Source: Methanolobus vulcani
GTDB lineage: Archaea; Halobacteriota; Methanosarcinia; Methanosarcinales; Methanosarcinaceae
Length of the DNA stretch: 64,000 nt
Direction of reading: 5' to 3'
Assembly: GCF_006546655.1 (NCBI RefSeq)
Contig: NZ_VIAQ01000010.1
Span: 1 to 64,000, forward strand
Shown here: positions 9,955 to 13,300 of the stretch, piece after piece
Layout: each line of letters opens with the position of its first letter
How positions within the stretch are numbered: the stretch's first letter is position 1
Translations under genes and position numbers: made by a program
The notes under the pieces: generated by a model
What the model was told of the DNA's origin: nothing
The model's input: only the letters and a program-made list of their open reading frames with translations
Databases searched by the model: none

Positions 9955-10344
9955 ATGCACAACGCAAACCAGTACGTTTCACAGTCCACAAATGTCTCTG
10001 ATTTCCTCAGGGATAGCAAATATATAATACTGTTTTACGTACTCGGGGATTTCCTGACAACAGCTCATGCGCTTAACTATGGATTCGAAGAGAATAACTT
10101 CCTGGCGGCAGTTATGCAGAACTATGGTGTGGGCTCTCTCCTTATACTTAAAGTCCTGTTCATTGGAATCGTGTACTGGAATTACAGTATGCTCAAAGAG
10201 GCAGATTCAAAGTGGACAGATCTTTTGTGGGGATTGTCAAGGAAAGTTATTGCATTCGTAGGTCTGTTTCTGGTGGTGAACAACCTGATGGTCATATTCA
10301 TGGAATGCAGCCTTGTGCAGATACTCCATACTGTGGCATTATGA
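9955..10344 (+). CDS. DUF5658 family membrane protein
   Basis: A 129-residue protein with about three or four membrane helices (IILFYVLGDFLTTAHAL, SLLILKVLFIGIVYWNY and VIAFVGLFLVVNNLMVIFM). The DxxTT plus downstream GFEENNF pattern in the first helix and loop is the signature of DUF5658, a family of unknown function common in methanogens. A TATA-like GGTTATATACAGC at about 9920-9933 sits roughly 26 nt before the ATG, so the transcript may be nearly leaderless. A tandem hairpin repeat begins just after the stop codon. Confidence 0.8.
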   Translation: MHNANQYVSQSTNVSDFLRDSKYIILFYVLGDFLTTAHALNYGFEENNFLAAVMQNYGVGSLLILKVLFIGIVYWNYSMLKEADSKWTDLLWGLSRKVIAFVGLFLVVNNLMVIFMECSLVQILHTVAL

Positions 10345-10659
10345 TGGTAAAAACGGGAAAACGTCCCAAAAACGACGCAAAACGGAAAAACGTTCCAAAA
10401 ACGATTAAAAACGGGGAGCCACCAATTTTATTACTTTTCTGAAACCGGATTTATTATTATGTTTTTATGTTGGCATAATCCTGCCAGCAGACCAATAGAT
10501 AGCACGATTAAAAGGCAACATCTATATGGCATTTAGATAGTGAAAAGAACGTCTATTGAGTTCATTCGTACCGTATACTTTTACTGACGTTTATCCAGGT
10601 CTTTAAAATTTAGCTGATAACAATGGTGAAAGATTGTTGTTACCTGAAAATTGATGAAA
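10345..10659. other. Gap after the DUF5658 gene
   Basis: Holds the tandem hairpin repeat at 10351-10415 and then AT-rich DNA without a credible gene. An inverted repeat, AACAAT at 10619-10624 against ATTGTT at 10633-10638, lies just beyond the stop codon of the minus-strand microprotein gene and may end its transcript. Confidence 0.5.
10351..10415. repeat. Two-and-a-half copies of a 29-bp repeat with covarying hairpin arms
   Basis: The unit AAAACGGRAAAACGTYCC plus spacer occurs twice at a 29-bp period, with a partial third copy (AAAAACGGGG). In copy one GGGA (10355-10358) faces TCCC (10364-10367) across AAACG; in copy two GGAA (10384-10387) faces TTCC (10393-10396) across the same AAACG. The arms differ by a paired change that keeps complementarity. 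It begins 7 nt after the DUF5658 stop codon. Confidence 0.75.
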
Positions 10660-10767
10660 CTAGTGGATTATAGCCGAGAAAACACCCACTGATAACATCA
10701 GAAGAAAATAAAGGGATGCCAGTAGAATTAACCTTGTTGCAGTGGATTTGCTGGCCTTGGAAAACAT
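10660..10767 (-). CDS. 35-residue single-helix membrane microprotein (copy 1)
   Basis: Reads ATG to TAG on the minus strand. The peptide opens MFSKASKSTATR, a basic Ser/Thr-rich head, and continues with one hydrophobic helix of about 20 residues (LILLASLYFLLMLSVGVFSA). A TATA-like element, TTTATATC on the minus strand (10799-10792), is centred about 29 nt before the ATG, so the mRNA would be leaderless or nearly so. It matches the microprotein at 11344 in length (35 residues each), layout and several positions of the helix. Function unknown; candidates are a small subunit of a membrane complex or a membrane regulator. Coding status rests on the paralogue and promoter, not on a database match. 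Confidence 0.6.
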   Translation of the reverse strand: MFSKASKSTATRLILLASLYFLLMLSVGVFSAIIH

Positions 10768-11343
10768 AACAGTCAATAAAAAGACAGATATGATATAAAT
10801 AGATTCCTGATTAGATCAAACTTCCTATTTTTAAAGAATATGTAAATTACATACGATAAAAAGAAAGCAGGACAGGACAGAGGCGCCAGTGAACACTTAT
10901 AATTACAGGAAGTCGTTTTTGAAGTAGCATTTGGAGAACACTAGAATAATCGAAGGCGTCCATCCGACCTGTCTGACCCCTAGATAGAGTCTATTATATA
11001 TCAATGTTACGAATATAAAAAATAGTAATATTTTGTATGCGTTTTGCATAATTTGTCATAATTATTACTAAACAATCCCGGATACTATACCAACATAAAA
11101 GTAAAAAACCTACATTTACGAATTTGTATTGAATTTTAAAACGATGTGGTTTGAAAAGCATAAAAGTAATTGGCAAATTAAGCTAAACACGGTAAACGGT
11201 CTTTAGACTTGCCATACGGTATTCATGCGGACTCGGAAGTGAATCTGGATAGACCTGGCATTTGGATTTAGGTTTAGTGTTGCTACTCAATAATACGTGA
11301 ACAACATTGTTACACAAAAAGAGCATTTTTGAGATAATACAAA
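10768..11343. other. Gap between the two microprotein genes
   Basis: No gene is supported. The stretch is AT-rich with a more GC-rich patch near 10940-10985. The promoter of microprotein 1 lies at its left end, and a near-palindrome GTGAACAACATTGTTACAC at 11298-11316 lies downstream of microprotein 2 on the minus strand. The longest open frame here has no ribosome site and an unlikely amino-acid composition. Confidence 0.5.
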
Positions 11344-11451
11344 TCATATGCTTGTAACGCCTGCAAAAATCACAATTCCAAAAAGAAGAGCGATATACAG
11401 GATTGCAAGCACCAGTGCTTTAGCAGCAATTATATTGCCGGAATTATTCAT
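11344..11451 (-). CDS. 35-residue single-helix membrane microprotein (copy 2)
   Basis: Reads ATG to TGA on the minus strand. A short polar head (MNNSGNIIAAK) is followed by one membrane helix (ALVLAILYIALLFGIVIFAG) and a four-residue tail. The head-helix layout, the total of 35 residues, the LY pair and the V(I)F(S/A) end of the helix line up without gaps with the microprotein at 10660. A TATA box (ACATATAAATAGC on the minus strand, 11493-11481) lies about 36 nt before the start, giving a leader of roughly 10 nt that contains GTGGT. Function unknown. Confidence 0.65.
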   Translation of the reverse strand: MNNSGNIIAAKALVLAILYIALLFGIVIFAGVTSI

Positions 11452-11613
11452 ATGTACCACATTCTAGCATTAAATGTACAGCTATTTATATGTAGTTAAA
11501 ATATGAAATTTATTAAAACTGTATAATAAATGACATTTGATAAAGTCGCAGATAAGTAATAAATCAAAACAAATGAGAAAAGTTACCCGGAAATTCCGGG
11601 ATTTGTTATTTAA

Positions 11614-11686
11614 CGCCCGAACCGGGATTCGAACCCGGGTCGGAGCCTCGACAGGGCTCCATGATAGGCCTCTACACTATTCGGAC
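11614..11686 (-). tRNA. tRNA-Asp (GUC)
   Basis: A 73-nt cloverleaf on the minus strand. The acceptor arms GTCCGAA and TTCGGGC pair with one G-T wobble; the anticodon stem is GAGCC/GGCTC around the loop CTGTCGA, giving anticodon GUC; the T arm is CCGGG-TTCGAAT-CCCGG; the discriminator base is G, as usual for tRNA-Asp. CCA is not encoded. A TATA box (TTTATATAC on the minus strand, near 11742-11732) lies 46-56 nt before the 5' end, so it has its own promoter and a leader of about 25 nt. Confidence 0.95.
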
Positions 11687-11771
11687 ATTCAAGTTGATTT
11701 CGCTTGTGAGCACCCCTAAAAGGAGGCTCTTGTATATAAAGCTTTTTGTGATTTATTCATGATTTTGAAAG

Positions 11772-11879
11772 TCCCGCCTCCCAGACTCGAACCGGGGACA
11801 TCGCGGTGCCTGCGCGTAATGTGACCATGCACATGAATCAAACTACAGCCGCGCACTCTACCAACTGAGTTAAAGCGGG
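11772..11879 (-). tRNA. tRNA-Tyr (GUA) with a 35-nt intron
   Basis: Acceptor CCCGCTT/AGGCGGG, D stem ACTC/GAGT, anticodon stem CGCGG/CCGCG, T arm CCCGG-TTCGAGT-CTGGG and discriminator A form a complete cloverleaf once an intron is removed. The anticodon loop reads C-T-GTA-G then is broken after position 37. The intron spans plus-strand positions 11808-11842, the canonical archaeal site cut by the splicing endonuclease at a bulge-helix-bulge. Exact cut points are inferred from the cloverleaf. CCA is not encoded. Confidence 0.95.
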
Positions 11880-12103: not shown

Positions 12104-13300
12104 TTAGAAAGTATCCAGTTCGCCGTTGACGACCATCTTTGTGATCTTTGTAATATCGGCGAGCCAGTCATCCATAATGACCTCTACTTCTGACTTAATA
12201 GAGTTGAAATTCGCACCATCGCCAGGGATAATCTGTGCACTGGCTACAAACGGCTGGTCTATTGGCTGGCCAATCTGGGAAAGAAGCTTAATGTAAACGT
12301 CCTCTACATCAGGAACAGCCTTCACAATATCCTTTGCCATCTGGGTTGACAGCAGGTTGTATATCTTACCGATATGGTTAATCGGGTTCTTACCACTGGT
12401 TGCTTCCATACTCATTGGCCTGTTAGGAGTGATAAGTCCGTTACAACGGTTTCCACGGCCTACTGAACCATCATCACCCATTTCTGCAGAAGTACCGGTA
12501 ACTGTAAGGAACACAGAGTTTGCCTCAATGTTATCTGCTGCATTGATGTATGTTGTTACTTTGCGGTCTGTACGCTTAAGAGCAAGATCTGTAACATAAT
12601 CAACCATCTCTTCCTTGATATTCAGGTAGTGGTCCATATCATCAACGTAGCTTCCAACCATTCCACAACAGATGGTAAGCTGAATATCATCATTGTCTCT
12701 CAGACCCATTACCTTGATATCCGTACCAATTCCAGGAATCTTCTTCTTGAGATCGGTGATCAGCATCCTCTCTGAATCATAAACTATCTGTTCAAGTTCT
12801 GAGAAGGGAGCATGACCTACACCAAAGGAAGTATCGTTTGCCACAGGAACCCTGTCTCTCTGGAAAACATCTCTCAGGTCTGATGAACCTGTACCAAGCT
12901 TGCAGTCAAGAATTATGTCGCCTTCAAGGTCAAGGTCAACAATAGTGTTCCTGAGATAGTTCTTAGCTGCCTTCAATGCAACAGCCTCTGCAGGAATCTC
13001 AACACCATTGAATTCCTTGGTTGCCCTTCCTACAAGCAGAGTATAAATTGGCTGAATTACCTCTCCACCTCCAAACTGAGGGTTTGACCTTCCTGCCACA
13101 ATCTGAGTCTCATCGGTATTGTGGTGAAGAACTGCACCGCATTTTTCGATATATTCCTTGCATAGTGCACGGCTCATTGCCTCTGCCAGACCGTCTGAGA
13201 TACTGTCAGGGTGACCTACTCCCTTCCTCTCTACAAGCTCGATCTGCTGTTTTTCCACCGGCGTTTCGATCAGGTGTTCAACTTTGATGTTTCGCATCAT
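12104..13300 (-). CDS. mat: Archaeal S-adenosylmethionine synthetase
   Basis: Makes AdoMet from methionine and ATP. The archaeal class is very diverged from bacterial MetK; its marks are seen here: the N-terminal [20 protein letters not shown] (catalytic His and Asp), [21 protein letters not shown] and [18 protein letters not shown]-type motifs, and a length near 400 residues. AGAGGATTAAT precedes the tandem ATG codons at 13300 and 13297, so either may be used. It is divergent from the his operon, with 250 nt of AT-rich DNA between them. Confidence 0.96.

Follow-up and report, generated by a model that had tools for sequence, protein, structure and literature searches.

Two minus-strand reading frames in the analysed window, a 64,000-nt stretch of Methanolobus vulcani DNA, are almost certainly genuine, selected and homologous protein genes. 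As judged from their sequences, both belong to a family of membrane microproteins of about 35 residues, each with a single predicted helix, that occurs in Methanolobus and one related genus and is real, multicopy and apparently undescribed. Gene A (copy 1) occupies positions 10660-10767 and gene B (copy 2) positions 11344-11451. Translation of the minus strand yields MFSKASKSTATRLILLASLYFLLMLSVGVFSAIIH for gene A and MNNSGNIIAAKALVLAILYIALLFGIVIFAGVTSI for gene B. As an earlier sequence-only reading had stated, each product comprises 35 residues (counted from the ATG in the case of gene B) and contains one predicted transmembrane (TM) helix. The AlphaFold2 model of the gene A product consists of a single helix spanning residues 4-34, with a mean pLDDT of 83.

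The two genes are situated in a gap flanked on one side by a gene that, from its sequence, we take to encode S-adenosylmethionine (SAM) synthetase (12104-13300) and bounded on the other by the gene for a DUF5658 membrane protein (9955-10344). On the SAM synthetase side, the gap harbours a tRNA-Asp gene (11613-11687) and a 108-nt tRNA gene (11772-11879). The latter is found by Rfam and missed by ARAGORN, for which reason it probably contains an intron; judged by eye, it is likely a tRNA-Tyr (GTA). In relatives, the order across the gap is SAM synthetase, tRNAs, B, A, a third family member (C) and, on the opposite strand, DUF5658. Several larger genes lie between the microprotein genes in two genomes (G008 and G014; loci L139 and L140), within the same interval from SAM synthetase to DUF5658, as if the enlarged gap of some species were an insertion hot spot. 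The gap of M. vulcani also contains a 29-nt tandem element of 2.3 copies (10348-10414), T-rich on the minus strand, which G001, G020 and G025 also carry, in 2-3 copies, at this position and which is confined to its one site in whole-genome scans of this genome, G001 and G025. Since it folds no better than shuffled sequence, a structured RNA was ruled out; a terminator for minus-strand transcripts is a possible role.

To establish the coding status of the two frames, each peptide was searched against 60 related genomes. Orthologs of gene A were identified in 13 other genomes of the same genus (E <= 0.0011), and orthologs of gene B, with 83-89% identity, in six; among named genomes, an alignment search with group B returned matches in M. 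vulcani and M. bombayensis. Stops or frameshifts in both frames of relatives, which would speak against coding genes, were looked for and not found: with this genome included, all 14 group A genes and all 7 group B genes extend over the full 108 nt with an intact frame. Synonymous change exceeds non-synonymous change, as expected of the genes initially proposed, with pN < pS in 91/91 A pairs and 21/21 B pairs, and in 258 of 259 pairs across groups A, B, D, E and F. The pooled pN/pS values of these five groups were 0.44, 0.17, 0.34, 0.26 and 0.27, respectively. Furthermore, variation is highest at codon position 3, followed by positions 1 and 2, and the sense frame exhibits the lowest pN/pS of the six frames. 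Antisense frame +1 is largely open; an antisense reading was rejected on the lower pN/pS of the sense frame (0.17 vs 0.31 in B, 0.46 vs 0.54 in A) and on the same 3>1>2 codon pattern. The orthologs of A and B also keep the same syntenic slot, where each gene and about 75 bp of promoter form an island of conservation: identity amounts to 72% (A) and 79% (B) between -75 and -1, and to 71% (A) and 84% (B) in the coding sequence, with outer flanks that are only 37-52% identical. Orthologs, synonymous excess and conserved neighbours all agree that A and B encode proteins.

Both are lone genes, each with its own TATA promoter and, as predicted from the position of the box, a leader of roughly 0-12 nt. 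In gene A, 26 nt separate the box (TATTTATA; 10801-10794, minus strand) from the ATG, and group A orthologs carry TTTATA at the same distance, at -32. The box of gene B (TATAAATA) lies at 11490-11483, also on the minus strand. The centres of the boxes precede the ATG by about 30 nt (A) and 36 nt (B), in good agreement with the initial estimates of about 29 and 36 nt, and the claim that each copy has a promoter of its own is strengthened by a TATA position that is fixed across orthologs. For M. psychrophilus, a published study gives a distance of 19-22 nt from TATA box to start site and leaders shorter than 10 nt for about 16% of mRNAs (PMC5378194). On this spacing, gene A would carry a leader of about 5-8 nt, with which its initial description as leaderless is compatible.

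The same spacing would place the start of gene B on an in-frame GTG (11460) or immediately upstream of it; with this GTG begins a candidate 5' extension (GTG GTA CAT; 11452-11460, minus strand) that precedes the ATG. The GTG follows the TATA box by 23 nt and is kept in 7/7 close orthologs, and the nine nucleotides are identical in six of the seven, the seventh differing by one G/C change. Gene B may start at this GTG, which would yield a 38-residue product beginning MVHMNNSGN; a possible alternative is that the nine nucleotides belong to a short leader carrying GUGGU. On the 5' side of the gene B TATA box there is an AT-rich element, TTTTAATAAwTTTTgAATTTTAACTACATA (11489-11518, minus strand), a candidate regulator site that is kept in 7/7 close relatives and recognisable in the distant relatives G002, G015 and G017. 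Its use as a genome-wide operator was rejected, as a scan allowing up to 3 mismatches returned one site in this genome.

The sequence-only reading had counted two copies; both stand, and the count proved too low. The third member, C (10446-10565, minus strand), lies adjacent in decayed form, and an intact fourth is located on another contig of this genome (G000:C15:585136-585240). C is intact in five relatives (G001, G007, G010, G020 and G025). Here, it opens with an ATG at 10565 and reads MNSIDVLFTI up to a stop at codon 11, followed by an out-of-register remnant (LIVLSIGLLAG); a 6-nt deletion has occurred in the helix, and the TATA box is gone. Beside it, A and B have lost neither frame nor promoter. 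The decay of C is an internal control: where constraint is lifted, sequence at this locus decays.

The paralogy of A and B had been proposed from an alignment made by eye, which does not suffice, as BLASTP of A against B finds no match. Homology was for this reason tested with profiles, at which level it holds. A profile of group A alone ranked 62 family members, including B, above the first unrelated frame among 15,133 ORFs, and a profile of group B alone, whose set had been gathered with B as the sole query, recovered D, A and C first; the member labels in these single-group tests came from a mixed profile, so that the tests are not fully independent. A family profile built from 28 members, and then a broader one from 29, delimited a family of 95 members at E <= 1e-3, distributed over 20 of the 27 Methanolobus genomes and six genomes from g25, a further genus of Methanosarcinaceae, with up to eight copies per genome. 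As the members used to build a profile match it by construction, the informative part of this result is its specificity. Beyond Methanolobus and g25, no match at E <= 1e-3 was obtained among 186 genomes of the order, nor was the family detected in the other Methanosarcinaceae genera searched, and 393 genomes across the phylum added only two matches, both inside frames of 361-372 residues. Within Methanolobus, the family is absent from 7 of the 27 genomes.

The members share a signature, [KR]-x7-Y-x2-[LM]-x2-[SAG]-x4-[AS]-[GA], located in the single TM helix. Among 98 members, K/R is present in 91, Tyr in 96, [LM] in 97, the small residue in 83, A/S in 88 and G/A in 80. The corresponding residues are R12, Y20, L23, S26, S31 and A32 in the gene A product (P0001) and K11, Y19, L22, G25, A30 and G31 in the gene B product (P0002). 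A and B combine the signature in one predicted TM helix with a lone gene whose TATA box stands at a short, constant distance. The heads are group-specific, and the helix signature is common to all groups. No convincing match emerged when Pfam, NCBIfam, PHROGs and PDB were searched with profiles; the best weak match outside PDB was a PHROG without function (E 0.0064, group F), and PDB matches with E values of 0.005-0.04 were dismissed as designed repeat proteins aligned over the head only. No viral relative was found in our searches, and the limited set of literature that we searched contained no description of the family.

Each group occupies a conserved locus of its own as a lone gene, and no neighbour family common to all groups was found. 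A, B and C lie between SAM synthetase, the tRNAs and the DUF5658 protein. Group D has as neighbour an AIM24 protein, rubrerythrin or a cytochrome c, and group E adjoins NAPRTase, a soluble protein. Group F has a CbbQ/GvpN-type ATPase nearby and, in a subset of genomes, a heme-copper oxidase as well; group G is found close to a PAS/GAF protein and to MscS-like channels. A g25 member adjoins the same DUF5658 gene, which indicates that this position is older than the split of g25 and Methanolobus; when the same slot was inspected in other genera, the family was found only in g25. In G020 and G025, group F is divergent from a ccoN-ccoO-cytochrome c fusion. Group F occurs in 7 genomes, COX1 in 4 and both in 3, and a role of F as a heme-copper oxidase subunit was rejected, as G001, G010, G017 and G024 contain F without the oxidase and G015 shows the reverse. 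The fusion itself, a cbb3-type protein of about 950 residues, is present in four Methanolobus genomes (L094, L101 and L108 in G020, G025 and G005, and G015:C35:5619-6875) and is unexpected in a methanogen.

From the shared helix signature, the varied heads, the separate promoters and the scattered loci, we infer alternative regulatory subunits with one target. The reading that we tentatively favour, while holding it for something less than probable, is that the copies are regulatory subunits of one common membrane complex, each consisting of a single helix and each induced separately. According to the positive-inside rule, the peptide would insert so that the polar, basic head at its N-terminus faces the cytoplasm and its short C-terminus lies outside. 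The almost invariant Tyr, along with the small residues by the outer end of the helix, would then dock on a common membrane complex or on sister peptides, and the group-specific heads and promoters would set the timing of each copy and the tuning of the complex, the copies being otherwise interchangeable. The decay of C alone and the absence of the family from seven Methanolobus genomes fit dispensable accessory factors, and these seven genomes imply that the supposed target works without the family. The conserved positions do not cluster significantly on one face of the helix (moment at 100 degrees, p=0.30), which leaves a common docking face hypothetical, and the gene neighbourhood indicates no target complex. 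Judging from their neighbourhoods, groups E and F could have local partners instead.

Such partners are the essence of a competing explanation that we regard as rather improbable, in which each member is a dedicated small subunit stabilising a different membrane complex encoded nearby, in the manner of KdpF or CydX. A single TM segment in about 35 residues is typical of small dedicated subunits and fits the peptides described here, and the conserved neighbourhoods of the groups, among them F beside the oxidase fusion in G020 and G025, are in line with it. Against this, F and the oxidase do not track each other (four genomes with F only, G015 with the oxidase only), E stands beside the soluble NAPRTase, A, B and C stand beside SAM synthetase, tRNAs and DUF5658, and the helix signature is common to all groups. 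The loci have no type of partner in common, and each gene stands by itself, with its own promoter, outside operons, which makes dedicated subunits the less likely reading.

Unlikely, too, are membrane-active stress or toxin peptides resembling those of type I systems (DinQ, TisB), which on induction would depolarise the membrane or change its shape. Among type I toxins, multicopy peptides of about 30 residues with a single TM segment are typical, a description that suits a multicopy, single-TM family of similar length, of which one copy (C) has decayed here. DinQ, for instance, has one TM segment, causes membrane depolarisation and reduces ATP (PMC3567139). The family departs from this pattern in that leaders of about 0-12 nt, as given by TATA position, leave no room for antisense control by way of a long 5' UTR, and in that orthologs hold fixed chromosomal positions under strong purifying selection (pN/pS of 0.17 in B); for these reasons, type I toxins are the less likely reading. 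The lack of a detected viral relative, and of any RNA of the known Rfam families beside the genes except tRNAs, points in the same direction. Equally unlikely in our judgement are self-assembling or lipid-packing helices that would act on the bilayer under salt, temperature or other stress, with no protein target: peptides predicted to be helical over nearly their whole length, small outer-end residues that could pack helices and a separate promoter for each member are all consistent with this, but a buried Tyr in 96/98 members and a fixed helix register exceed the needs of bulk packing. It is highly improbable that the frames arose by chance on conserved DNA of a non-coding or regulatory kind, or that they represent small RNAs, for although the A and B peptides alone give no significant alignment and the group A promoter region is as conserved as the coding sequence, the codon-position pattern, pN/pS, constant length, cross-locus profile homology and the lack of Rfam matches except tRNAs argue against it.

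With its diagnostic signature and conserved promoters, the family amounts to a countable set of genes that have probably been overlooked in a methanogen genus, and the Methanolobus genomes with and without it constitute a natural contrast set. If the copies do tune a shared complex, they would add a new control layer on methane-producing metabolism. In M. psychrophilus R15, nine intergenic 'sRNAs' are reported that are conserved, induced by cold and preceded by a common cold box (PMC5378194). Some short intergenic transcripts of Methanolobus may be microprotein mRNAs.

Several known systems bear comparison with the family. KdpF, CydX, AcrZ and MgtS have about 30-50 residues and one TM helix and are usually missed by annotation; they are mostly single-copy, with one partner each, and the family differs from such E. 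coli-type small membrane proteins in having up to 8 paralogs per genome with a common TM signature. To our knowledge, it is unusual in prokaryotes, toxin families aside, for a membrane protein of fewer than 40 residues to expand within one lineage into many copies under separate control. The type I toxins (DinQ, TisB, Ibs, Ldr) are likewise multicopy, hydrophobic single-TM peptides of similar length, whereas the family is archaeal and is distinguished by short leaders, fixed synteny, strong purifying selection and no antisense partner detected by Rfam. Small proteins of the same archaeal family are known from M. mazei, in which MtrR (49 aa) and MtrI (68 aa) act on the membrane-bound Mtr complex (PMC13370731, PMC12774963) and sORF_05 is membrane-associated and encoded inside a methylamine operon (PMC11456600). 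However, MtrR has no TM segment, MtrI combines a zinc ribbon with four helices that lie on MtrCDE, and sORF_05 belongs to an operon, unlike the lone genes described here; MtrR and MtrI show that small proteins act on membrane complexes in this archaeal family, and neither resembles the peptides. In way of working, the family can be likened to the regulins of SERCA, namely phospholamban, sarcolipin, myoregulin, endoregulin, another-regulin and DWORF (PMC8396278). These, too, are several short single-helix membrane peptides per genome, expressed separately and built from a short N-terminal head, a TM helix and a very short C-terminus (sarcolipin has 31 aa). They are eukaryotic and have a known target, SERCA, and the likeness is confined to the way of working, with no sequence relation claimed. 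In the regulin-like system that this comparison brings to mind, which we consider doubtful for Methanolobus, up to eight interchangeable microproteins, each induced by a condition of its own, would compete for one site on an energy-conserving or transport complex that they share in the archaeal membrane, and would retune it.
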